Source of the DNA: a bacterium | Lineage (GTDB): Bacteria; Joyebacterota; Joyebacteria; Joyebacterales; Joyebacteraceae | Assembly: GCA_025782395.1 (NCBI GenBank) | Contig: JALGZD010000174.1 | Coordinates: 1 to 35,832, forward strand | Length of the DNA stretch: 35,832 nt | Reading direction: 5' to 3' | Shown: positions 4,405 through 32,781 of the stretch, in pieces | Layout of the letters: every line of letters starts with the position of its first letter | Position numbering within the stretch: position 1 is the first letter of the stretch | Made by a program: the position numbers and the translations under genes | Notes under the pieces: model-generated | What the model saw: the letters and a program-made list of their open reading frames with translations, nothing else | What the model was told of the DNA's origin: nothing | Databases searched by the model: none

Positions 4405-5832
4405 GTGGCCGGCAAGGCAACCAGCCGACCTGGACACGTCCTCACAGACACCCACGTCCATCTCAACCTCAAGGATTTCAGCCGGGACCGTGATGAAGTC
4501 ATCGCGAGGGCGCTTGAGGCCGGCGTTGGGTTGATGATCAACGTTGGGTTCGACCTCGCCACGACCCGAGGGTCCATTGAGCTCGCCGAGCAGCACGATT
4601 TCATCTACGCGACAGCCGGTATCCATCCTCACGAAGCCTCCTCCTACAACCACGAGACGGAGAAGGAGCTCAGAGAGCTGGCCGCACACCCGCGCGTGGT
4701 TGCCATCGGTGAGATCGGTCTCGACTACTACAGGAACCTCTCACCGCGGGGTGACCAGCTGCGAGCGTTTCGAGCACAGATACGCCTGGCGCGCGAACTC
4801 GGGCTCCCGCTCGTCATCCACAACAGAGACGCGCTCGATGATGTCCTTGATGTTGTAGATGAGGAAGGAGCTGGCGGGGTCGGTGGTGTCATGCACTGCT
4901 TTCCCGGCGACGCCGACTATGCGCGGGAGGTTGTGGATCGCGGTTTTCACGTTGGGATAGGTGGGCCGATCACATACTCGCGCGAGGGCAGATTTGTGAG
5001 AGCCGTCAGAGCAATACCACTCAACAGGATTCTCCTCGAGACGGATTCACCGTGGCTGACTCCGGAGCCGTTCAAGGGGCAGGGAACGAAGCGGAACGAA
5101 CCGGCCTTTGTTTCGGAAGTGGCTGAGGCCGTGGCCATCGCGACCGGCATTGGCATTGAGGACATCGTGCGACAGACCACAGGGAACGCGATGCGGCTCT
5201 TCCGAATCCCGGAGAAGCCGGTGTCATCGATAGCCTATGAGATGTGGGGCAATCTCTATCTGAATATCACCAACAGGTGCACGAACGAGTGTCGGTTCTG
5301 CATCAGATACCAGACCGATATCCTGTGGGGATACAATCTACGTCTTGAGAGGGAGCCTTCGACGGAGGAGCTTCTGGAGGTGATCGGAGATCCGACCCGA
5401 TACCGCGAGGTGGTGTTCTGTGGATACGGGGAGCCGACGATAAGACTGGACGTCATCAAAGCGGTCGCGGCTCGCGTGCGCGAGCTCGGCGGGAAGGTGC
5501 GCATCGACACAAATGGGCACGGCAACCTCATATGGAACAGGAACATCGTTCCGGAGCTTGCCTTGGTCGCGGACTCCATCTCTGTCAGTCTCAACGCCGA
5601 GAGCGCTGCTGTCTATGAGAGTATCTGCCGACCGAAATTCGGAGCAGGCACGTACGAGCACGTTCGTTCTTTCATACGAGAGTGTGTGAAGACGGGGCTG
5701 GATGTCACGGTCAGCGTCGTCGATATCCCAGAGATTGACATCAAGTCGGCCAAGAGAGTTGCCGATGAGCTCGACGTCCCGTTTCGTGTCCGTGGCGGCG
5801 GTAGAAGACGGCCCGAGGACGGCGGAGACTGA
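4405..5832 (+). CDS. TatD-family hydrolase fused to a radical SAM domain
   Basis: This 475-aa protein joins two enzymes usually encoded separately. Residues 8 to about 265 are a TatD-type metal-dependent DNase/hydrolase: DTHVH (metal ligands), GEIGLDYY (Glu ligand), HNRDA and HCFPGD (His ligands), ETDSPWL (Asp ligand). From about residue 275 there is a short radical SAM domain with the cluster motif CTNECRFC, GYGEPT for SAM binding and an IDTNGHG segment. It resembles the TatD-linked radical SAM proteins that sit beside tatD in many genomes. The radical SAM substrate is unknown; a link with tRNA or DNA repair is only suggested by context. The start is GTG, two bases after metG. Both halves appear complete, and the fusion reads through without a stop. 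Confidence 0.88.
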   Translation: MAGKATSRPGHVLTDTHVHLNLKDFSRDRDEVIARALEAGVGLMINVGFDLATTRGSIELAEQHDFIYATAGIHPHEASSYNHETEKELRELAAHPRVVAIGEIGLDYYRNLSPRGDQLRAFRAQIRLARELGLPLVIHNRDALDDVLDVVDEEGAGGVGGVMHCFPGDADYAREVVDRGFHVGIGGPITYSREGRFVRAVRAIPLNRILLETDSPWLTPEPFKGQGTKRNEPAFVSEVAEAVAIATGIGIEDIVRQTTGNAMRLFRIPEKPVSSIAYEMWGNLYLNITNRCTNECRFCIRYQTDILWGYNLRLEREPSTEELLEVIGDPTRYREVVFCGYGEPTIRLDVIKAVAARVRELGGKVRIDTNGHGNLIWNRNIVPELALVADSISVSLNAESAAVYESICRPKFGAGTYEHVRSFIRECVKTGLDVTVSVVDIPEIDIKSAKRVADELDVPFRVRGGGRRRPEDGGD

Positions 5833-5838
5833 TCGCCC

Positions 5839-6702
5839 ATGGATCTCACATTACCGTCTGTCATGCTCTCCAAGTACGGGCTTGCGCCTTCGAAACAACG
5901 CGGGCAGAGCTTCCTGAGCGACTGGAATGTGACCCGGAAGATAGTTGACGAGATTGCGCCGGAACCGGATGATGTCGTTGTCGAAATCGGCCCGGGTTTC
6001 GGAGCACTGACATTTGAACTCGCTGAGAGAGCGCGTCACGTCATAGCGGTGGAACTCGATGGTGGAATAGTCCGCGCATTCAGGGAGGAGTACGGTGAAA
6101 ACCCGCGCATCACGCTTGTCGAAGGTGATATCCTCCGCTTGGATTTCGAGGAGATTCGGGGGATTCACAAGTGCGAGCGGCTGCTCGTCGCCGGGAACAT
6201 CCCGTATAGTATTACGAGTCCACTGATCCGGATGCTGACGGATGTAAAGGGTGTGGTCAAGCGAGCCGCGCTCATGGTGCAGTCGGAAGTAGGTGAACGG
6301 ATCGTGGCACGCCGGGGTGACAGGGAGTACTCGGGGCTGTCTGTGGTGGTTCAGTATCATGCACTGGCGCGACTTCTTTTCACCGTGAAGAGCACGTGCT
6401 TCTTCCCGAGACCGAAAGTCGACTCGAAGCTCGTGGAACTCAGTTTCGAACGGGCTCCAAGGAGAGACTCCAACGCCGAGCTCTTCGAAGCGGTCGTTCA
6501 AGCAGCGTTTGGAAAGCGGAGAAAAATGCTTCGCCGGTCCCTCGAGGATCTCATGGTTCGTTTCGATGTGACCAGTGAGGGTCTGGAAACGGCGGCAGGG
6601 ATAGACCTGACGCGCAGGGGCGAGACGCTCGACGTATCGGACTTTGAGTTTCTCGCGATAGCGCTGGAAGCATCGGGGACGAGTGCGGGTATAACCGAGT
6701 AA
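5839..6702 (+). CDS. ksgA: 16S rRNA adenine dimethyltransferase
   Basis: RsmA/KsgA dimethylates two adjacent adenines in the 3' terminal hairpin of 16S rRNA during small-subunit maturation. The 287-aa product has the family start (KYGLAPSKQRGQSFL), the SAM-binding loop VEIGPGFGALT (about residues 50-60), the acidic VELD, EGDIL, and the catalytic NIPYSI motif (about residue 118), followed by the usual helical C-terminal domain with FGKRRKMLRRSL. The length is typical. It starts six bases after the TatD-radical SAM gene and its stop codon overlaps the next start (TAATG), so it is cotranscribed with an envelope gene. Confidence 0.95.
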   Translation: MDLTLPSVMLSKYGLAPSKQRGQSFLSDWNVTRKIVDEIAPEPDDVVVEIGPGFGALTFELAERARHVIAVELDGGIVRAFREEYGENPRITLVEGDILRLDFEEIRGIHKCERLLVAGNIPYSITSPLIRMLTDVKGVVKRAALMVQSEVGERIVARRGDREYSGLSVVVQYHALARLLFTVKSTCFFPRPKVDSKLVELSFERAPRRDSNAELFEAVVQAAFGKRRKMLRRSLEDLMVRFDVTSEGLETAAGIDLTRRGETLDVSDFEFLAIALEASGTSAGITE

Positions 6703-8756
6703 TGAAAGGCCGGGTCGTGCGCAACCACCATCTCTCTCATCTTCCTCTGGTCATCCCGATGGTCCTTCTTGTTCTGCTGCTCTGTGTCGGTCACTCGTGG
6801 GCGGACGATGGTGATCCTCCTCCGGAGAGTGAACCGGAACAGGGAGAGGCGCCGGACGGAGGGCAGGTCCCGGAAGGGCCGCCGGAGGGCGAGGGTGTGG
6901 AAGAAGGCGATGAATCTGACGATGGCGCGGACGAGGGAGAAGAGGGCGATCTCCAGGGATTTGAGAATCGTGGCGTCGCCGAGCGTCGCCAACGTCTGGG
7001 ACTGGCCGCAGAGTTTCACCCCAGCTACAAGCTGACGTATGGGAGAGATCAGGACGTGAGCAAATGGGGTCACGATTTCGGTCTCTCCTATCAACTGTCC
7101 CCCAAGGTTGATTTCGTCGCATCGTCCAGCATAAACACACGGTCGAACGACATTCTCAACAGGGAAAACCGCCAGGAGATCTGGAGAACGAATCTCAATG
7201 TCGCCGTGACGGACGCCGTTATCATGGGGGTGAAGTTCAACCGCAGCACCCAGGTGGACGTTCGGAACGAGGGGGCACCGAACGAAGTGAGGAGTGAGCG
7301 AGAGAAAGAGACCATGGATCTCACGATGGGTTATGTGAAAGCGTTTCTGAATGGGGTCAAGACATCACTGAGCGCGAGCTCCGGCATGGAGAAGAACGAA
7401 TACTCCGACGTCAGAAGCCGGGGATCGGCTCAGACGATCGCCGCGAAATTCGACTACGATCCAATGGAGAATCTTACCAGCTCGTTCGGCTACTCCGGGG
7501 GCCACTCACTGCTGGATTCAAGGCAGGCTGAGGGTGTGGAGAACCAGAACGAATCGTTCGATCACGCGCTCAACGGCACCATGAAGTACGAATGGGATGT
7601 GAACTCGCTTGAGACAAGCGCGCGAAGATCGTTCTCGACCATGCAGTATCCTAAGGAGGGAGGGATCGAGGAGCGTGAGCGGGAGAGCGGAGCGTTCAGC
7701 GTGAGCGGCGCTTTTGCGCCCATGGAAGATCTCAAGATGGGGTTCGACTACAACTACTCTCGGAGCCAGGCCTACTATCACGTTGAGACGACAAAGGACA
7801 GCGATATCACTGGGCACTCGGTGAAAGGCAGCATCGAGTACACATTCAGCGGAGTGAGATTCACCACAAATCTCGGGTCCGAGCGAAAGGCCAACGAGTA
7901 CTTCAACTTTCAGACCGGCGACACGCACCACGACACTTTCTCCATGTCGCTCTCCCGCGACTTCGGGGACCGGTTCGACGTGGACCTGCGTGGGCGCATG
8001 AGCCTTCTGTCGCACCAGTACGAGGACACAGCGGCCAACGATCAGGACCGCGACCTCTTTGAGCAGGAAGTGACATTGAATCTGTCATACAAGCCGAGGA
8101 CCAGCATTACAGCGAGCCTGAATCTGAAGATCAAGGAGAACGATCTCATCTACATGAGGACGTCCAGGACGGGCGACAACAAGACCACCCAGACCTATTC
8201 GCTGCAGCCGACACTGCGAATACAGGTGAGTCCTGCAGTCACCCTCACACAGAAGTACACCCTGTCGGCCGACTACGCGTTCTACACGTTCGATCACACA
8301 TCGAACTTCCTGATCCGGGGACTGTCGATCTCCACAGACCTTGGCTGGAGCCCGATGGCCGGGCTCTCTCTCGATGCGACCCACAAGTACACAGGGCAGG
8401 ATGAAGGAAGCTATGTGGAGGATGAATTCGGTGTCGAGCGCTATGGGAGAAGCAGCGAGCGGGATGATCACAGGATCTCGCTCAAGGCGCGATACACGTT
8501 CTTTGATCTAATAGACATCGAAGCAAAGCAAGATCTCAGCGTCAGACGGAAGTGGACGATCCGTGACGGCGTGCGGCAGCTGTCGTGGGAGAAGCAGGAC
8601 ACCCGTTTTACGGGGAAGGCGAGCGTGGACTACAAGCTCGAAGACGATTCAACCCTCAGAATCTCCGTCGCTCGCACTCTGAGGGATGCAGCGAACATCA
8701 CCGAGCAGCAGGCGGATGTGTGGGATATTTCTGCGACGCTCGACAAGACTTTCTAA
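6702..8756 (+). CDS. outer-membrane beta-barrel protein with acidic linker
   Basis: I recognise no named family in this 684-aa protein. Residues 1-34 form a signal peptide (hydrophobic LVIPMVLLVLLLCVG, cleavage likely after SWA). Residues 35 to about 88 are a very acidic Pro/Gly/Glu/Asp-rich linker. The rest is a long series of alternating-residue beta strands rich in Tyr, Thr, Ser and charged turns, such as LTYGRD, GFSYSGG-like and FDYNYSRS segments, and the protein ends ISATLDKTF. The terminal Phe and strand pattern fit a BAM-assembled outer-membrane barrel of roughly 20 or more strands. It could be a porin or a surface scaffold; no substrate can be inferred. It follows ksgA with a one-base overlap. 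Confidence 0.75.
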   Translation: MKGRVVRNHHLSHLPLVIPMVLLVLLLCVGHSWADDGDPPPESEPEQGEAPDGGQVPEGPPEGEGVEEGDESDDGADEGEEGDLQGFENRGVAERRQRLGLAAEFHPSYKLTYGRDQDVSKWGHDFGLSYQLSPKVDFVASSSINTRSNDILNRENRQEIWRTNLNVAVTDAVIMGVKFNRSTQVDVRNEGAPNEVRSEREKETMDLTMGYVKAFLNGVKTSLSASSGMEKNEYSDVRSRGSAQTIAAKFDYDPMENLTSSFGYSGGHSLLDSRQAEGVENQNESFDHALNGTMKYEWDVNSLETSARRSFSTMQYPKEGGIEERERESGAFSVSGAFAPMEDLKMGFDYNYSRSQAYYHVETTKDSDITGHSVKGSIEYTFSGVRFTTNLGSERKANEYFNFQTGDTHHDTFSMSLSRDFGDRFDVDLRGRMSLLSHQYEDTAANDQDRDLFEQEVTLNLSYKPRTSITASLNLKIKENDLIYMRTSRTGDNKTTQTYSLQPTLRIQVSPAVTLTQKYTLSADYAFYTFDHTSNFLIRGLSISTDLGWSPMAGLSLDATHKYTGQDEGSYVEDEFGVERYGRSSERDDHRISLKARYTFFDLIDIEAKQDLSVRRKWTIRDGVRQLSWEKQDTRFTGKASVDYKLEDDSTLRISVARTLRDAANITEQQADVWDISATLDKTF

Positions 8757-8821
8757 ATCACGCGGACAGAACTTGACCTCTGATGATCGCGGGCGCGGGG
8801 GAACAACAGGGAGAGCGACAC

Positions 8822-9433
8822 GTGAAAAACAGGTTGCCGGTGACAAATATCACCCTTGTGGTGCTCACGGTTGCCCTGGTGTTTGGGTTGAGCGGGTGCC
8901 TGTTCTCGCCCCGAGCGCCCGACGGTCCCCCGGATGAGGGTGGTATTCCGTGGGAGACGCCCGTGACGACGTCGATCGTGCTCACGAATCTTAAGGCCGC
9001 GTTGGTGGGCGAGGGCACTGCAAACTACGTGGACTGTTTCACCGACGACTTCCGCTTTCACGTCGACCCGGAGGACTCCCTCGACGCGGGCCAGGAGGGA
9101 GAGGCACGCTACGCGAACTGGGTGGTGAGCGACGAAGAGCAGGCCGTCTCAGGCATCTTCGCAGAGGCGTCCGGGATCTCGATCTCCTTCACGGCCTTCG
9201 AGCCGCCCGACGAGTCGCAGGACGAGACCTTTCGGAGAGACGACTACGTTCTGGTCGTCGACTGGGCGTCCGGGCAGCATGTGAGCGAGCAGGTAACCTA
9301 CAAGGGCCGGGCAACGCTCCATATGCGGAAGACCGGATCACGCTGGGCCATTTACGAGTGGGTCGACCGCCGGACCGAGGATCCTGAGGACTTCGAGACG
9401 TGGGGTGTCCTGCGTGGCGACTACAGAAACTAG
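8822..9433 (+). CDS. lipoprotein with NTF2/SnoaL-like appearance, copy 1
   Basis: This 203-aa lipoprotein has a signal peptide ending in the lipobox LSGC (Cys 26) and then a Pro/Gly-rich tether. The body (TTSIVLTNLKAALVGEGTAN, YVDCFTDDFRFHVDP) looks like a SnoaL/NTF2-like alpha+beta fold, ending WAIYEWVDR then WGVLRGDYRN. I start it at GTG 8822 because AGGGAGAG lies seven bases upstream and the signal peptide begins there; an upstream ATG at 8783 would put 13 extra residues before it. It is related to the lipoprotein at 9705, sharing the layout and the C-terminal motif. Function unknown; anchored in the cell envelope. Confidence 0.78.
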   Translation: MKNRLPVTNITLVVLTVALVFGLSGCLFSPRAPDGPPDEGGIPWETPVTTSIVLTNLKAALVGEGTANYVDCFTDDFRFHVDPEDSLDAGQEGEARYANWVVSDEEQAVSGIFAEASGISISFTAFEPPDESQDETFRRDDYVLVVDWASGQHVSEQVTYKGRATLHMRKTGSRWAIYEWVDRRTEDPEDFETWGVLRGDYRN

Positions 9434-9704
9434 CAGTGTACATCCGGACCCCCCGCTTCGTACCCACCGCCACGCAGGCGAGGGTGTTCACAGCCTCGAA
9501 TACCCGGGCTTGACAATCGTCAGATCATCTGAAACAGCGAGAAAGCTCATACAGGCACGGGGTTTGCACTGATCCGTGAAGCGAGCTTTGCATGGGGAAC
9601 CAGTGGTCTCGACTGTAGTTGCGCGCCACAGGCGAGCTTGACTTATGTATAGGAAACTGGTATATTTGACTCTGAGTAAGGGCATGAGGAAGGAGACCAA
9701 CATC
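9434..9704 (+). other. intergenic region between the two lipoprotein genes
   Basis: No coding frame is convincing here. It holds a strong promoter (9638-9666). Upstream is a nested inverted repeat: AAAGCTC (9542-9548) with GAGCTTT (9583-9589), enclosing CACGG (9556-9560) with CCGTG (9574-9578). There is no T-tract after it, so it is not a standard terminator; it could be an end-of-transcript structure for the first lipoprotein gene. Confidence 0.5.
9638..9666 (+). promoter_or_regulatory. sigma70-type promoter for lipoprotein copy 2
   Basis: TTGACT (9638-9643) and TATATT (9661-9666) with exactly 17 bases between them, giving a start near 9673, about 30 bases before the ATG at 9705. An ATG at 9645 lies inside the promoter spacer, which rules it out as the gene start. 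Confidence 0.8.
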
Positions 9705-10364
9705 ATGAAACGGGTAGTGCCATGGCGACTTGCCGTAGTCGTCATCGCTGCGGTTCTCATCATGCCGTTGAGCGGGTGCTGGAACCCTTTTGCGCCGCCG
9801 GGTGGCGATCCCCACGACGTTGACGAGGGTTTCCGCGAGAGAACAAGCCCTGAGAACGTCATTCACAATCTCGTCCGCGCGTATGAGGAGATGGACGCTG
9901 AGTATTACCTTGCCTGTCTCGCGGATACGTTCGAGTTCTGGCTGTATCCTCCGGACGTTGCCGAGGATCCGGAACTCCCCGGGTGCGGATATTGGGGCAA
10001 GGCCGATGAGGTACTGATCGCCGAGGGCATGTTCTGTGAGGGCTCGAATATCGACTATATCACCCTGACGCTGACTCAGCGTAACGAGAGTGAAATCCCA
10101 GCTGCCGACCCGAGTGACCCGTCCAGCTGGCAGTACGAGCACGACACAGACCTGCGTGTCTACATCGGCGAAAACCAGTTGTGGGCGAACGCCGGTGCGC
10201 GCTTCCTGTTCTCTGTCGATCCCAATGAGACGGCGAGCAACGGCGCGGACCTTTGGGAGATCGCGAAATGGGAGGACGTCGTCTTCAGGGGGCGGAGTTC
10301 TCACGATCGAGAGGGTGGTGAGGAGATCTCCTTCGGGCGCCTGAAGGCGCGGTACCGTAACTAG
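9705..10364 (+). CDS. lipoprotein with NTF2/SnoaL-like appearance, copy 2
   Basis: This 219-aa lipoprotein starts MKRVVPWRLA and has the lipobox LSGC (Cys 25). The body opens with SPENVIHNLVRAYEEMDAEY and YLACLADTFEFWL, a helix-plus-strand pattern like SnoaL/NTF2-fold proteins, and closes with LWEIAKWEDV and FGRLKARYRN. Start ATG 9705 is supported by AAGGAG nine bases upstream and by the promoter at 9638-9666. It is a diverged paralogue of the gene at 8822 with its own promoter and a good terminator at 10392, so it can be expressed alone. Such lipoproteins are numerous in some uncultured phyla; role unknown. Confidence 0.8.
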   Translation: MKRVVPWRLAVVVIAAVLIMPLSGCWNPFAPPGGDPHDVDEGFRERTSPENVIHNLVRAYEEMDAEYYLACLADTFEFWLYPPDVAEDPELPGCGYWGKADEVLIAEGMFCEGSNIDYITLTLTQRNESEIPAADPSDPSSWQYEHDTDLRVYIGENQLWANAGARFLFSVDPNETASNGADLWEIAKWEDVVFRGRSSHDREGGEEISFGRLKARYRN

Positions 10365-26818: not shown

Positions 26819-26885
26819 GAGTCTGACTCCCAGGGGGTGACATCCGGCGCGGCACGGTCTTGAGACGACAATGCAGGGGGATGCA

Positions 26886-28060
26886 GTGAAGAACACGATG
26901 GCGAAGGATGCGGAGAGGCTCGCCGGCAAGCTTACGAAGCTGCGCCGCCGCATCCACATGTACCCGGAACTGGCGTACGAGGAGCACCGCACGTCGGAAC
27001 TCGTGGCGGATACGCTGAGGGCCGCCGGAATCGACGTCACGACCGGAGTTGCGAAGACGGGAGTCGTCGGCTTTCTGCGCGGGGCCAAGCCCGGCAGAAC
27101 GGTCGCACTCCGGGGAGACATGGACGCGCTTCCGATCACGGAGCAGAACGATCGAGGGTGGAAGGGGTCATGCACGCGTGCGGCCACGATGGGAACACAA
27201 CGACCGTGCTCGGCGCGGCGATGCTTCTTGCGGCAAGGCGTGACGATATCGCGGGCAACGTGAAATTCTTCTTCCAGCCGTCCGAGGAGGCTCCGCCCGG
27301 AGGGGCGCTCCCGATGATCGAGGAAGGGGTTCTTGAGAAGCCAAAGGTCGACTATGTTATAGGTGTGCACGTCGACTCAATGATTCCTGTCGGGAAGATC
27401 GGAGTGCGGGACGGGCACATGATGGCGGCGGCCGACGACTTCTCACTGTCCATCCTGGGGGAAGCGTCGCACGGCGCGAAGCCGCATCTGGGAGTCGACG
27501 CTATCACACTCCAGGCGCAGGTCATAACGGCGCTCCAGACGATTGTGAGCCGGAGGGTGAACCCGACGCACGCGATCGTTCTCACGCTGGGCACGATCCA
27601 CGGCGGATACAGGCAGAACGTCATTGCCGATCGCGTCGACATCGAGGGAACGCTTCGGACACTCGATCCCAAGGACAGGCGGGACGGCGTACGCATGATA
27701 GAGAAGACCGTCGACCATGTGACGAAGGCCTTTGGAGGTCGGTACGAATTCGACTTCCGGGATGGCTATCCGCTTCTGACGTGCGATCCTACGATCACCG
27801 AGATAGTGCGGAAGGCAACGAGCGAGCTCTTCGGAAAGCGTAGTGTTGTTGAAATCACCGAGCCGTCCATGGGAGGCGAGGACTTCGCCTATTTCGTCAA
27901 TCGCGTTCCCGGCATGATGTTCCGTCTGGGCACGGGCAACAAGAAACGCGGCTTCACCTACCCGTGGCATCACCCCAGGTTTGACATCGACGAGAACGCT
28001 CTCTGGATCGGCGCTGCCGTAATGGCCCACTCGGCCTTGCTCTGTCTGGGGGACGGCTAA
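26886..28060 (+). pseudogene. M20D-type amidohydrolase broken by a frameshift
   Basis: The two halves lie in different frames. The first (to about 27151) gives RRRIHMYPELAYEE and RGDMDALPITEQND; the second, from about 27152, gives SRVEGVMHACGHDGN, PSEEAPPGG, GEASHGAKPH, and WHHPRFDIDENAL near the end. Together they make a full-length amidohydrolase of the hippurate/N-acyl-amino-acid M20D family, about 395 residues, with the metal-binding Cys/His and Glu residues intact. At the junction, END-type sequence jumps to SRVEG: in relatives about five more residues (the LPYAS stretch) stand there, so a deletion of about 13 bases explains the shift. It could be a genuine pseudogene or an assembly error. 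GTG 26886 follows AGGGGG; ATG 26871 is also possible. Confidence 0.85.
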
Positions 28061-28177: not shown

Positions 28178-29197
28178 ATGAGTGGGGGAGAACGAGAGCT
28201 GATCAAGCGCATACGCGAGAGCGTGGGCGCGCCGGGGCGGGCGACCATCGTCGGGATAGGCGATGACGCGGCCGTCTTTGAACCAGCGCCGGGGCTCGGT
28301 CTCATCACATGTGACGCGTTCGTGGATGGCGTTCACTTCCGCCGGGATTTTGCGACACTCCGCGATATCGGCAGCAAGTGCATGGTTGCAAACGTCAGTG
28401 ACATTGCTGCAATGGGCGGGTTCCCGACCCGGGCGGTGGTCTCTATCTGTGTCCCCGAGCACATCACAGAGAGTGATATCTCCGCCATCTACAACGGGAT
28501 GCTTGACGTCTGCCGGCGTTTCTCGTTCGAGATCGTCGGCGGCGACATCGTCGGCTCCCCGCACGACCTCGTCATCTCGATTGCACTCACGGGGGCCGGA
28601 AGCCGGGACAGAATTGTCACCCGTTCAGGCGCGGTCGTGGGTGACGCGATCATGGTCACCGGCCGGATCGGGGGCGCCGAGGCAGGACTCCGGGCGCTTA
28701 CCGCAGGTCTTCCGCAGGAGGGCGCCGTGCTGGCGGCCGTAAGACGACACCTCAGGCCGGTCCCGCGGATTGCCGAGGCTCAGGCGTTTCTCGACGTCGC
28801 TACGCCTCACGCCATGATCGACATAAGCGACGGGTTAGGGTCGGAGCTCTGGCACCTTGCGGAGGAGAGCGGAATCGGAGTGAGAATAGAGGAGGATCTT
28901 ATTCCGATTGACGAGTCCGCGATCGCAGTCGCTGACAGGATCGGTTGCAATGCACTCGAGCTCGCAATGGGAAGCGGGGAGGAGTTCGAACTCGTCGTCG
29001 CGATACCGCGGTCTGAGATGTTACGGACGATGGAGCACGTGGCGGCTGTGACCGGAACGACGGCAACGTACATCGGTGATGTAGTGAGTGCCGCCGAGGG
29101 ATGTAGTATGGTGAGAGCGGATGGTTCCGTCGAGCCGCTTGAGCGCTCGGGGTACGAGCATCTTGGTGGGGTGGATGGGGGAGGTGACGGGGAATGA
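28178..29197 (+). CDS. thiL: thiamine-monophosphate kinase
   Basis: ThiL phosphorylates thiamine monophosphate to thiamine diphosphate with ATP. The 339-aa protein shows the PurM/ThiL fold markers: ELIKRIRE, VGIGDDAAVF (metal-binding Asp pair), TCDAFVDGVHF, GSKCMVANVSDIAAMGG, GGDIVGS, VTGRIGGAEAGL, and MIDISDGLGSEL. The ATG follows AGAGGT. The length is typical. It overlaps the next gene by four bases, an odd partnership between a cofactor enzyme and a secreted protein. A 35-nt tandem repeat lies immediately upstream. Confidence 0.95.
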   Translation: MSGGERELIKRIRESVGAPGRATIVGIGDDAAVFEPAPGLGLITCDAFVDGVHFRRDFATLRDIGSKCMVANVSDIAAMGGFPTRAVVSICVPEHITESDISAIYNGMLDVCRRFSFEIVGGDIVGSPHDLVISIALTGAGSRDRIVTRSGAVVGDAIMVTGRIGGAEAGLRALTAGLPQEGAVLAAVRRHLRPVPRIAEAQAFLDVATPHAMIDISDGLGSELWHLAEESGIGVRIEEDLIPIDESAIAVADRIGCNALELAMGSGEEFELVVAIPRSEMLRTMEHVAAVTGTTATYIGDVVSAAEGCSMVRADGSVEPLERSGYEHLGGVDGGGDGE

Positions 29198-30087
29198 GTG
29201 AGCCAGATGGAACCCGACGATCTGGTCTGCGCGGGGGCACGCAGTCCTGCGGGCGGTGTGCGTGTGTGTGCGGGCGTGCTGTGTGGTTGTGTGCTGTGTG
29301 GCTATGTGCGGCTGGGCTCTTTGCTCTGTCTGGTCGTGCGTACGCCGACGAGGTGTTCGGTGGTATTGTCGCGGATACTACCTGGACGAGAGCGGGGAAT
29401 CCGTGGACTGTCACCGGGAACGTCACGGTCAAGTCGGGAGCGACACTGACGATTGAGAGTGGTGTCGAGGTCCTGTTTAACGACAACTGGTACCTGTGGA
29501 CCGACGCTACTACCGGAGGGACTATCATTGTTGAAGGTGCGATGGGGGACAGCGTCGTGTTCAGGGCAGCCTCCGGGCTGCCGGACGAGAGGCAGTGGAG
29601 GGAGATCGGGATCTTCAACTCGACAGGAACGTCGTTCAGCTACTGTGTGGTGATGCACGCGAAGACCGGTATCAAGCTGGACGGCTCCGACAGTCCGATC
29701 ACGCACTGCGCCTTGAGGCACTGCCAGACCGGGATCTGGTGCAGGAGAGCGTCACCGTCGATCGAGAGTTCATGGATAACGGACTGCTCGTTTACGGGAA
29801 TCCTTTGCGAGATGAGATCGAGCTCGCCCGTCATCCACGACTGCAACCTCTACGATAACCCCGGGCACAATGTCCGGCTCAGGAGCTACCGCGATCCACC
29901 GATGGTCACGATCGATGCCGAAGAGAACTGGTGGGGGACGGCCGACCCGGTGGAGATAGAGGCGAGCATCTTCGATCACGACGACGATACGGATATCTAC
30001 GGGACCGTGGACTACAGCAACTGGTGCCCGGGAACGCCTGTCGAGGAGTGCTCCTGGGGCCATATCAAGGCATTGTTCAGACACTGA
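29194..30087 (+). CDS. secreted right-handed beta-helix protein
   Basis: A 297-aa exported protein. The N terminus is unusual: a 28-residue basic and Cys-rich leader, then the hydrophobic AVWLCAVWLCAAGLFAL and a cleavage site after RAYA (residue 51). The DNA there is strikingly GT-rich. The mature part is a parallel beta-helix: TVTGNVTVKSGATLTIESG, then coils such as SYCVVMHAKTGIKLDGSD, SPITHCALRHCQTGIWC and SPVIHDCNLYDN, and NWWGT, a common cap motif in such proteins. It ends SWGHIKALFRH, matching the tail motif of the two lipoproteins upstream. ATG 29194 overlaps the thiL stop and has GGGAGGTG at good spacing. It probably acts outside the cell or in the periplasm as a carbohydrate binder or adhesin. 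Confidence 0.8.
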   Translation: MSEPDGTRRSGLRGGTQSCGRCACVCGRAVWLCAVWLCAAGLFALSGRAYADEVFGGIVADTTWTRAGNPWTVTGNVTVKSGATLTIESGVEVLFNDNWYLWTDATTGGTIIVEGAMGDSVVFRAASGLPDERQWREIGIFNSTGTSFSYCVVMHAKTGIKLDGSDSPITHCALRHCQTGIWCRRASPSIESSWITDCSFTGILCEMRSSSPVIHDCNLYDNPGHNVRLRSYRDPPMVTIDAEENWWGTADPVEIEASIFDHDDDTDIYGTVDYSNWCPGTPVEECSWGHIKALFRH

Positions 30088-30218: not shown

Positions 30219-30280
30219 GTGATGGGGATCACAAAGCCTGCGGCCGGCAAACGGTCGGAGGCTTTCTTTGTACACCATCA
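30219..30280 (+). promoter_or_regulatory. structured mRNA leader burying the ribosome binding site
   Basis: Two hairpins abut. Hairpin 1 is GTGAT-GGGG-ATCAC (30219-30232). Hairpin 2 pairs AAAGCCT (30233-30239) with AGGCTTT (30259-30265) and CGGCCG with CGGTCG inside, loop GCAAA. The ribosome binding site GGAGG (30257-30261) lies in the 3' arm, six bases before the TTG start. A competing pairing, TGATGG (30220-30225) with CCATCA (30275-30280), would open hairpin 1. No known riboswitch class matches. Confidence 0.6.
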
Positions 30281-32781
30281 GAATCAGAAGATCGAAGCTG
30301 GATGTTGCAAACAGCGTGGGCGCAAGTCTGCTTGGCGGCACCGTCAGTGCCGGCTCCGCAGTCAGGACTTCTGTCCTCCAGGTCGTCCTCTCAGTGCTGC
30401 TCCTCACTGTTCCTGTTCTTGAAGCGAACGCCGGACTCGACCCGGCGGCTCTGACTGCCACCAGCTATGAAGTGGCAGTCACCGCCACGGCTGACGCCGT
30501 GGTCGCTACCCTGTTGCTCGACCCAGCACAGCTGGAATTCGAGCGGCATGAGGGGTACGACCTGGTCTCCCTTGAGGGAGCCCACTATACCACCGAGCCA
30601 GCTCTGCCCATGCTTCCCCTCCTCAACATCCAGCTTCTTCTTCCTCCAGATACAAGAGCTGAGGACCTGTCCTACAGCTATGGCGGCACGGTCTATCTTC
30701 CCGACTCATACGTGATTCTACCTGCTCCCCGGCCAGCGCGGTTCTCTTCTGGTGAAGCAGTCAAAATACCCCATCCGAAAGCAGAGACCTATGGCTCTGT
30801 GCTGCCATACCCCAGGGAGATAGCACGCCTGGCCGGGGGCGGTTCCTCTGCTGGTTACAGGATGGCCGATATTCTTGTGACGCCACTGCAGTATGTGCCG
30901 GCGACCGGGGAACTCCTTTTTCATACACGCATCGAGATCACAATCGATCTGAGCTCTACCTCCAACCGCTCGCCGGTTGCCGCTTCTCTCTCCTCGGCGG
31001 CCGGCGCGGCGGTTGTCGGCTCCGCGGCTAATCCCGGCGACACCGCTTCGTACACGAGTAGATTGTCAGCACGGGACGCCTCTGCTGTCGACTACATCAT
31101 CATATGTGCGGAGTCGTTCACTGATGCGTTCCAGCCGCTTGCCGACTGGAAGACGAAGAAGGGTGTGAAGGCAGAGATAGTGACCCTCGAGTCCATCTAT
31201 GCGAACCCTCTGTTTGATGGAAGAGATGATGCCGAAGAGATCCGGAACTGCATCCGTCAGTACTTCTCTGAAGACGGAACGAGCTGGGTTCTTCTTGGTG
31301 GAGACACCAACATCATCCCGGCGCGCAGGGCTTACGACTTCTTCTACGACCAGGGTATTCCGGCGGACCTCTACTACTCGGCTCTCGACGGAAGCTGGAA
31401 CGACGACGATGACGGCCGATGGGGTGAGATCGGAAGCGACGGCGTGGACATGTACGCCGACGTGTTCGTCGGGAGGGCGCCCGTCAGCACCACGGACGAA
31501 GCGGCGATCTTCGTCGACAAGGTCCTCGTGTACGAGGGTGCGTCGTTCACGGTGTCTTCCGACTTCCAGACAGACATGCTCTTTCTCGCCGAGATTCTCT
31601 GGGATTCACCGAACCCGTACACCGATGGTGGCATTGCGCTCGATATGATCGACGACGGTTACGTCCCGGACGTGTTCGGCCCGATCACCAAACTCTATGA
31701 GAGCTCCGGCAACCTGAGCACGGCGTCAGCCGTTCAGGCGCTGGAAGATGGATACGGGATCATCGTCCACGAAGGACACGCCAACATCTCGACCGCCAGC
31801 GTTGGTCCCGGTGCGCTCACCTCCGCGACACTCGACGGTCTCTGTAACGGTGAGCGCGGTGGTCTCTGGTACTCGGTCGGGTGCTGGTCCGCCGCCATCG
31901 ATTACGACACGTTCGGCGAGCACTGGCTTACGAACAGCGCCGGTGGCGGCGTCGCGTATGTCGGCAACTCCCGCTACGGCTGGGGCTGCCCGGGCTACCC
32001 TGGACAGTGCGTGTCCGATCTCTACAGCCAGCGCTTCTTCGAGTCACTCTTCACGAAGGACCTGGTTCACGCCGGGCTGGTTCACGCGGATGCGAAGCAC
32101 AATTTCATCGGCCTTGCAGAGAGCGACGATTACACCCGCTACGTGATGTACGAGCTCAATCTTCTCGGGGACCCGGAGCTTCCGATCTGGACGGATGCTC
32201 CCTCTCTTCTCACGGTCAACTACGACGATGTGGTTCAGCTCGGGAACGATCGAGGCGATCTCGAGATTGAGGTGACGGTCGGCGGTTCACCCGTCGGTGC
32301 CGCCACCGTCTGCCTCATGACTGAGGATGGCGAGATCTACGTGACCGGCGAGACTGATGCTGCCGGCCGCACGGTTCTCACGATCGAGTTCGACCAGCCG
32401 CGCGAGGCCATGCTGACCGTCACCGCACACAATTGCGTGCCGTTCGGCGGGACTATCGGCCTCGGTGAGCCGACGTCGGATGTCGGCGACGCAGAGTTTG
32501 GAAGCGTCACCGCCCTTCACCAGAACTACCCGAATCCTTTCAATCCCATGACCGGCATCGCCTTCAGTCTCGCGGAGCGCGGGCACGCGCGGATCGCGAT
32601 CTATGATGTGTCCGGCCGGCTCGTGAGAGTGCTCATCGACGAAGATGTTGATGCGGGGCCGGGCTTTGTGGCCTGGAATGGCAGAGACGATGGAGGCAGG
32701 GACGTGGCCTCTGGGACGTACTTCGCGCGCATGAGCGGTGGGGGGATTTTCACAGAGAGAAAGATGGTGCTGATGCGATAG
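30268..32781 (+). CDS. secreted C25 family cysteine protease (gingipain-like)
   Basis: An 837-aa exported protease. Residues 1-55 form a long signal region with the hydrophobic helix VLQVVLSVLLLTVPVL. An N-terminal prodomain-like beta region (LTATSYEVAVTATADAVV, ALPMLPLLNIQLLLP) follows. The catalytic C25 domain (about residues 270-620) begins DYIIICAESF and includes GGDTNIIPARR, the catalytic His region IIVHEGHANIST and the catalytic Cys in YSVGCWSAAID, then ELNLLGDPELPIW. An Ig-like domain is next, and the last 90 residues are a FlgD/type-IX-like tail (NYPNPFNPMTGIAFSL, YDVSGRLVRVL, WNGRDDGGRDVASGTYF) ending RKMVLMR. The start is TTG with GGAGG six bases upstream. Such tails are used for export by type IX-like systems in FCB bacteria. 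It probably digests extracellular protein. Confidence 0.88.
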   Translation: MYTIRIRRSKLDVANSVGASLLGGTVSAGSAVRTSVLQVVLSVLLLTVPVLEANAGLDPAALTATSYEVAVTATADAVVATLLLDPAQLEFERHEGYDLVSLEGAHYTTEPALPMLPLLNIQLLLPPDTRAEDLSYSYGGTVYLPDSYVILPAPRPARFSSGEAVKIPHPKAETYGSVLPYPREIARLAGGGSSAGYRMADILVTPLQYVPATGELLFHTRIEITIDLSSTSNRSPVAASLSSAAGAAVVGSAANPGDTASYTSRLSARDASAVDYIIICAESFTDAFQPLADWKTKKGVKAEIVTLESIYANPLFDGRDDAEEIRNCIRQYFSEDGTSWVLLGGDTNIIPARRAYDFFYDQGIPADLYYSALDGSWNDDDDGRWGEIGSDGVDMYADVFVGRAPVSTTDEAAIFVDKVLVYEGASFTVSSDFQTDMLFLAEILWDSPNPYTDGGIALDMIDDGYVPDVFGPITKLYESSGNLSTASAVQALEDGYGIIVHEGHANISTASVGPGALTSATLDGLCNGERGGLWYSVGCWSAAIDYDTFGEHWLTNSAGGGVAYVGNSRYGWGCPGYPGQCVSDLYSQRFFESLFTKDLVHAGLVHADAKHNFIGLAESDDYTRYVMYELNLLGDPELPIWTDAPSLLTVNYDDVVQLGNDRGDLEIEVTVGGSPVGAATVCLMTEDGEIYVTGETDAAGRTVLTIEFDQPREAMLTVTAHNCVPFGGTIGLGEPTSDVGDAEFGSVTALHQNYPNPFNPMTGIAFSLAERGHARIAIYDVSGRLVRVLIDEDVDAGPGFVAWNGRDDGGRDVASGTYFARMSGGGIFTERKMVLMR

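Follow-up and report, generated by a model that had tools for sequence, protein, structure and literature searches.

A nine-residue peptide of the form WGxIKALYR ends dozens of exported proteins of unrelated sequence from several poorly known bacterial phyla, and it is probably a sorting signal that has not been described before. I consider it very likely that the peptide serves exported proteins as a C-terminal tag for export or sorting. The tag is conserved as protein, it is carried mostly by proteins with an export-like start, it occurs in genomes that encode SprA and members of the PorV family, and on related protein bodies it alternates with the T9SS type-A CTD. Judging from these sequence patterns, the chances seem to me about even that the tag is a short, alternative signal for T9SS cargo. 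None of the PMC papers listed by the literature searches describes the motif, as judged from titles, the opening lines of abstracts and selected passages.

The stretch of DNA analyzed (the window, 35,832 nt) comes from a bacterium of the phylum Ca. Effluviviacota, which passages of PMC11323493 equate with VGIX01. The features of the window that concern the tag are given below, the tags themselves being read directly from the sequence.

8783..9433, + strand: lipoprotein A, with a signal peptide and the lipobox LSGC; an internal VKNRLPV may be the true start
9401..9430, + strand: divergent tag WGVLRGDYRN, C-terminus of lipoprotein A
9645..10364, + strand: lipoprotein B, a homologue of lipoprotein A, with the lipobox LSGC
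10332..10361, + strand: divergent tag FGRLKARYRN, C-terminus of lipoprotein B
29194..30087, + strand: exported right-handed beta-helix protein (Pfam PF13229, E 8.3e-9)
30055..30084, + strand: near-canonical tag WGHIKALFRH of the beta-helix protein, after TPVEECS (modelled without secondary structure)
30268..32781, + strand: C25-family peptidase, a neighbor with the alternative (T9SS type-A) tail (PF01364, E 2.3e-59)
32527..32769, + strand: T9SS type-A CTD (FlgD-like) of the C25 peptidase (TIGR04183, over cut-off)

An earlier, sequence-only reading of the window had quoted these three C-termini, all of them correctly, and had taken them as three cases of one motif. The motif is real in each, but the two lipoproteins are homologous (lipoprotein B as query matches 8810-9193, within lipoprotein A, with E 1.2e-7) and are therefore not independent cases, so that the window holds two. 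The tails of both lipoproteins are divergent forms of the canonical WGxIKALYR, in which Arg is last, perhaps because a lipid anchor is already present. Relatives of lipoprotein A mostly keep TWGVLRGDYR at the end, with or without one extra residue, and the relatives of lipoprotein B that were seen have no Trp at the corresponding position of the tail. Both may be NTF2-like proteins; a Pfam search of the two gave no NTF2-like match. The AlphaFold model of lipoprotein B (mean pLDDT 36) is useless for the question of how the tail folds, placing a strand at 228-237 over the tail with a pLDDT there of 36-44. The model of the beta-helix protein (mean pLDDT 47, about 70 in the central part) leaves the tail unstructured, at low confidence (pLDDT 28-30 in the last blocks). 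The C25 peptidase next to it ends RKMVLMR, and its tail scores 24.3 bits against TIGR04183, the model of the T9SS type-A CTD (cut-off 23).

Elsewhere in the window, a barrel-like protein (6702-8756) ends DKTF. What appears by eye to be an M20-type amidohydrolase (26871-28060) is split into overlapping ORFs in different frames (26871-27263 and 27158-28060), which suggests a frameshift or an assembly error, and a single ORF (4405-5832) seems, also by eye, to fuse a TatD-like hydrolase with a radical-SAM domain.

The canonical tag is (S/T)PVExx[ST]WGxIKA[LM]YR, found at the stop codon or a few residues upstream of it. A logo built over 132 tags reads [ST]PVExx[ST]WGxIKA[LM]YR-stop and contains no hydrophobic span. 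Its W, G, K, [YF] and R, and also the Ala in the case of the named scan loci, were set by the search. Left free by the search were Ser/Thr before the Trp (129/132), Val at -5 (95/132), Glu at -4 (86/132), and the stop directly after the Arg, which is seen in 118 of the 132 tags. In the window's own genome, a loose form of the pattern applied to the DNA gave 51 matches, as compared to 10 for the reversed pattern, and a strict form gave 39 as compared to none. The strict pattern found 873 matches over 20 genomes of the phylum (14-69 per genome), again with none for its reverse. A sample of 400 kb of the own genome, taken without regard to the tag, contains 306 ORFs (about 110,000 residues), and the only copy of the motif among them stands C-terminally in an exported-like ORF. 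Conservation is near background at third codon positions that are free to vary and in the 3' flank of the tag, and so selection acts on the protein. The notion that the tag is a DNA repeat at the 3' ends of genes was rejected on the same grounds.

A relaxed scan of the sequence fetched from the own genome yielded 44 tagged ORFs, 34 of which end exactly with the tag (Arg last, Lys in one) and 10 of which have 1-10 extra residues. These derive from 52 rows, of which five chance frames were removed, as were three internal copies in L005 and L006 (one gene being listed twice) and a 43-residue ORF (L036); to the remaining 43 C-terminal rows was added the one case ending in Lys. L010 and L026, each at a contig end, probably belong to a single gene. 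Length was the criterion for calling ORFs, with no gene finder, and several regions around PorV loci that gave antisense ORFs were re-read for tags.

The sequence-only reading proposed that the motif be checked for enrichment among proteins with signal peptides or lipoboxes, and such enrichment is strong. A signal-peptide-like start was found in 34 of the 38 tagged own-genome ORFs with a complete N-terminus and in 55 of the 306 background ORFs (Fisher p 1.4e-18), a comparison that is approximate, since the rule was stricter for the background (no more than one hydrophobic segment further on, and a narrower limit on the start). The rule is a simple heuristic, a hydrophobic 11-mer after a basic n-region, and not SignalP. 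By the same heuristic, 85 of the 102 complete tagged ORFs among the matches listed in a scan of one genome per species have a signal-peptide-like start. The tagged proteins are shorter than those with a CTD, with a median of 320 residues (n=38) as compared to 818 for 70 CTD-bearing open frames, the latter measured from stop to stop (p 2e-12).

The bodies that precede the tag are diverse. Those longer than 50 residues, 41 in number, fall into 21 clusters without detectable mutual similarity, or about 20 unrelated clusters, as the window's lipoproteins separate in the clustering though they are remote homologues. The largest cluster, one beta-helix family, accounts for 15 of the 41. The 44 tagged proteins match 14 Pfam and 9 NCBIfam families, all of them body families by name, with models for beta-helix, FG-GAP, X25/CBM, lamin-tail, InhA-MAM, and choice-of-anchor proteins. 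No tail model of Pfam or NCBIfam was matched by these 44 own-genome proteins, and the nine NCBIfam families include no tail model of the PEP-CTERM type. Two models of sortase-dependent M36 proteins were matched, each by one tagged protein, and these are peptidase families. The choice-of-anchor matches are to J in two proteins and to X in one, a name with which NCBI marks mixed anchors. One shared fold as the source of the tag, of which it would simply be the last strand, was one of the results that the sequence-only reading regarded as fatal to its proposal; the clustering of the bodies and the Pfam matches reject it.

The tag extends to other phyla. A scan of one genome per species gave at least 113 loci with at least 124 tag matches (the first named set held 80 of the loci, and the counts were then redone on all 113). 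Among the matches listed, 108 of 124 have Arg last and 121 of 124 lie within 13 residues of the end, two of the 121 by chance. The C-terminal matches listed are labelled Eisenbacteria (62), plain "bacterium" (43), Krumholzibacteriia (6), and Ca. Effluviviaceae (3), with single matches, besides the two chance ones, in Coatesbacteria, Latescibacterota, Zixibacteria, Acidobacteriota, and Gemmatimonadota; none of the matches listed is labelled Bacteroidota. A viral collection, searched as a control, gave 12 matches, eight of them in near-identical ORFs of 30-31 residues, one in an ORF of 26 residues, one inside a protein, and two exactly C-terminal. Exact C-terminal matches thus occur, few in number, outside the expected records. 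These two lie in proteins of contigs filed as viral, L399 and L402, which end in WGxIKAFYR, the first with a signal-peptide-like start; either host DNA was misfiled or a phage carries a tagged protein.

The sequence-only reading also suggested a search for a co-occurring processing enzyme. The search, which covered parts of T9SS, found that machinery and no processing enzyme specific to the tag. SprA is present in 19 of the 20 genomes of the phylum (over cut-off in 17) and the PorV family in all 20, with 9-19 matches each. The own genome has about 13 PorV-family genes and 70 T9SS type-A CTDs over cut-off, including that of the window's C25 peptidase. PorU, for which the own genome was searched, scores 536 bits and adjoins a PorV-family gene whose own score is 238 for the family and 177, as against 250, for strict PorV; also beside PorU is a protein that resembles the inactive T9SS M6 protease (391 bits against a cut-off of 600). 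The scan listing led to 39 genomes, 35 with at least four tag matches and four with one. In 29 of those 35, SprA exceeds its cut-off. Sixteen of the 35 are genomes of the window's own phylum met again (recognized by equal counts and coordinates). The Ca. Effluviviaceae record L051 is one such case, its genome agreeing in both with G017 of the window's phylum, and this ties the name Ca. Effluviviacota to that phylum. With the 16 removed, there are 19 genomes from other phyla with at least four tag matches, and SprA exceeds its cut-off in 16 of them. No SprA over cut-off was found in G035 (16 tag matches), G042 (8), and G053 (4), genomes that are possibly incomplete. I assume that these lineages inherited T9SS from their ancestors, in which case its co-occurrence with the tag is weak evidence.

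A closer connection comes from the tails of related proteins. Contig C117 encodes two neighboring beta-helix paralogues, 35% identical across 482 positions (E 2.8e-60), that differ in their tails, the tag of one sitting where the CTD region of the other starts. For a sample blind to the tails, the beta-helix body alone was searched in 20 genomes (394 matches), and the census used those matches listed that cover the query body to its end (30 loci and follow-up fetches). Among the matches listed are 83 distinct proteins whose 3' end is complete: 52 with the tag, 11 with a variant of it (counted as tags after inspection), 17 with a CTD, and 3 with neither. Tag or variant thus ends 63 of the 83, and tag or CTD 80 of the 83. 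A wider set of 90 proteins, to which seven own-genome proteins fetched for their tags contribute, comprises 59 tags, 11 variants, 17 CTDs, and the same 3 with neither, rows that were 3'-open, partial or duplicate having been dropped from an initial 98. No protein of the 90 has both tails, and the three with neither constitute one small clade. A tree of the bodies (88 of the 90 rows) requires at least six changes between tag and CTD, as compared to a mean of 14.9 when the tails are shuffled; its well-supported (starred) branches force one change only.

The same relation is seen beyond this family. In all the DNA fetched, a sample not designed for finding them, CTD-tailed homologues turned up for 6 of 49 clusters of tagged bodies, in one case as a pair within a single 8 kb locus of Krumholzibacteriia (L117). 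No ORF with both tails was found among the 221 tag and 127 CTD ORFs of that DNA. A contig from Zixibacteria encodes two tagged proteins whose bodies are of a kind that usually ends in a CTD. Replacement of tag and CTD by each other on related bodies points to one pathway. The sequence-only reading had set the motif apart from the FlgD-like tail of the C25 peptidase, a separation that is apt for the sequences but, given that this tail is a T9SS type-A CTD and that tag and CTD interchange, probably not for the pathway.

In 11 of the 20 genomes of the phylum the lipoprotein array has a PorV-family gene as its neighbor. Nine of these 11 arrays contain a terminal tag or a variant of it; the contigs of the other two, G002 and G018, break off before that point. 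In the window's genus (five genomes, the own and four others) the same PorV-family gene stands without lipoproteins. The neighborhood is probably one ancestral locus. Of the roughly 13 PorV-family genes in the own genome, six have a TIGR04183 match no more than about 3 kb away (over cut-off for four of them), and none has a tag match within 3 kb. The sequences suggest a PorV-type protein as a candidate reader of the tag. Matches to the PorV/PorQ family are many throughout the genomes G000-G019 (9-19 each), several of those in the own genome being beside T9SS-tailed proteins. Next to the PorV-family gene of the genus (L305, L306, L307, L308) is a conserved protein of ~330-390 residues that ends in a hydrophobic stretch and a basic tail (such as AWLIWKRTKPRR), resembling a membrane-anchored C-terminus.

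Some copies of the tag are out of place. L005 and L006 (G000 C13:11632 and 13059), tandem MAM-like paralogues, have the intact tag as a mid-body insert of ~30 residues and no tag at the end, and the same insert is found in L074, a probable relative from the same genus. Two lipoproteins of two domains have an altered inner copy (SWGVIKYCF, GWGGIKYCF) and an intact terminal one, which fits a need for the C-terminus.

Of the known C-terminal signals, the T9SS type-A CTD (TIGR04183/PF18962; FlgD_ig-like tails) is like the tag in standing at the extreme C-terminus of Sec-exported proteins, on related bodies and in the same genomes, and in having a basic end after hydrophobic residues (28 of 30 tails from the CTD screen end in K or R). 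Passages of PMC11285876 describe the extreme C-terminus of known CTDs as essential and terminal extension as tolerated, and short extensions likewise occur at the ends of the tag, in the 10 of 44 with 1-10 extra residues. The CTD, however, is an Ig-like domain of 70-80 residues with the motifs PNPF, WDG, and SGxYF, whereas the tag is some 16 residues long and is marked by W, G, I, K, Y, and R. TIGR04183 matches none of the 44 tagged own-genome proteins at E <= 0.01, and the tag, with no profile match and no Ig-like domain, is not a T9SS type-A CTD. Two attributes of T9SS cargo are present: an N-terminal Sec signal (by the heuristic), and a translocon with attachment proteins (SprA, the PorV family, and, in the own genome, PorU). 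The tails of PEP-CTERM/exosortase, rhombosortase (GlyGly-CTERM), and LPXTG sortase systems are, like the tag, short C-terminal signals on unrelated exported proteins. They combine a motif with a transmembrane helix and a basic cluster, and the tag, whose logo has no hydrophobic span, does not belong among them. The beta-signal of BAM is also a short, aromatic-containing C-terminal signal in the envelope, carried by outer-membrane proteins. Its last residue is aromatic and belongs to a barrel strand, whereas the tag ends in Arg (118 of 132 stop there) and its bodies (beta-helix, FG-GAP, MAM, CBM) are mostly not barrels.

If the tag is indeed a T9SS signal, then tagged proteins would reach the periplasm by the Sec route, by virtue of a signal peptide or lipobox; the C-terminal peptide, exposed behind a linker of the PVE type, would then be read by the SprA translocon and a PorV-family shuttle. 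Transport to the surface would follow, and PorU may cleave the tag. The tag would serve smaller proteins as the Ig-like CTD of 70-80 residues serves larger ones. A more particular version, which I put forward tentatively on the basis of the sequences, is that 9-16 residues form a minimal T9SS signal that replaces the Ig-like CTD and is served by dedicated PorV-family shuttles, in parallel to CTDs, in several candidate phyla. Against a T9SS role, the tag aligns unconvincingly with the last strand of the CTD, its Lys one place off, L005 and L006 carry the tag intact inside the body, and lipoproteins such as those that bear the tag are not classical T9SS cargo. The main competing explanation, possible but rather doubtful, is a tag for sorting or anchoring in the envelope that is read by a separate system beside T9SS (a sortase-like enzyme, a receptor, or an outer-membrane dock), the body families being common to both since exported domains combine with any available anchor. 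The enrichment and the position of the tag are accounted for equally well in this way, and the choice-of-anchor matches (3 of 44 proteins), the tag's want of sequence likeness to the CTD, the smaller size of tagged proteins, and the PorV-family genes of the own genome, which adjoin CTD matches and no tag matches, all speak for it. But a separate system would have to explain why the alternation is specifically with the T9SS CTD, the two together ending nearly all tail-blind members among the matches listed. It is further disfavored by the tag's lack of a transmembrane segment, a feature of exosortase- and rhombosortase-type tails, and by the absence of a candidate enzyme in a search limited to T9SS parts.

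Sorting, anchoring and quality control were named together in the sequence-only reading. A C-terminal tag on exported-like proteins is borne out, but a quality-control role is not. A signal unconnected with transport, whether a tag for periplasmic proteolysis or quality control or a peptide for assembly or oligomerization, seems to me unlikely. A free C-terminus that is hydrophobic, aromatic, and basic would suit PDZ-type proteases or chaperones, and the conserved internal copy in L005 and L006 fits an interaction peptide, but such a role leaves unexplained why related bodies carry either the tag or a T9SS CTD, and the tag is encoded permanently on whole gene families rather than put on damaged products. 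It is very improbable that there is no functional tag at all, only the ancestral last strand of one fold or a DNA repeat at 3' ends. The homology of the window's lipoproteins, the large share of one beta-helix family among the bodies, and the strand over the tail in the poor model of lipoprotein B lean that way; the lack of mutual similarity among about 20 clusters, the unconserved synonymous sites and 3' flank, and the unstructured tail in the (low-confidence) beta-helix model lean the other.

In phyla that are known mostly through metagenomes, the tag would define a C-terminal sorting signal for many exported proteins that lack annotation, and the envelope proteomes of these phyla could be listed from sequence. 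If the tag is read by T9SS, then the signal of that system would shrink from the size of a domain to that of a peptide, synthetic peptides would allow recognition by SprA and PorV to be tested, and the abundance of PorV-like genes in these genomes could in part be explained.
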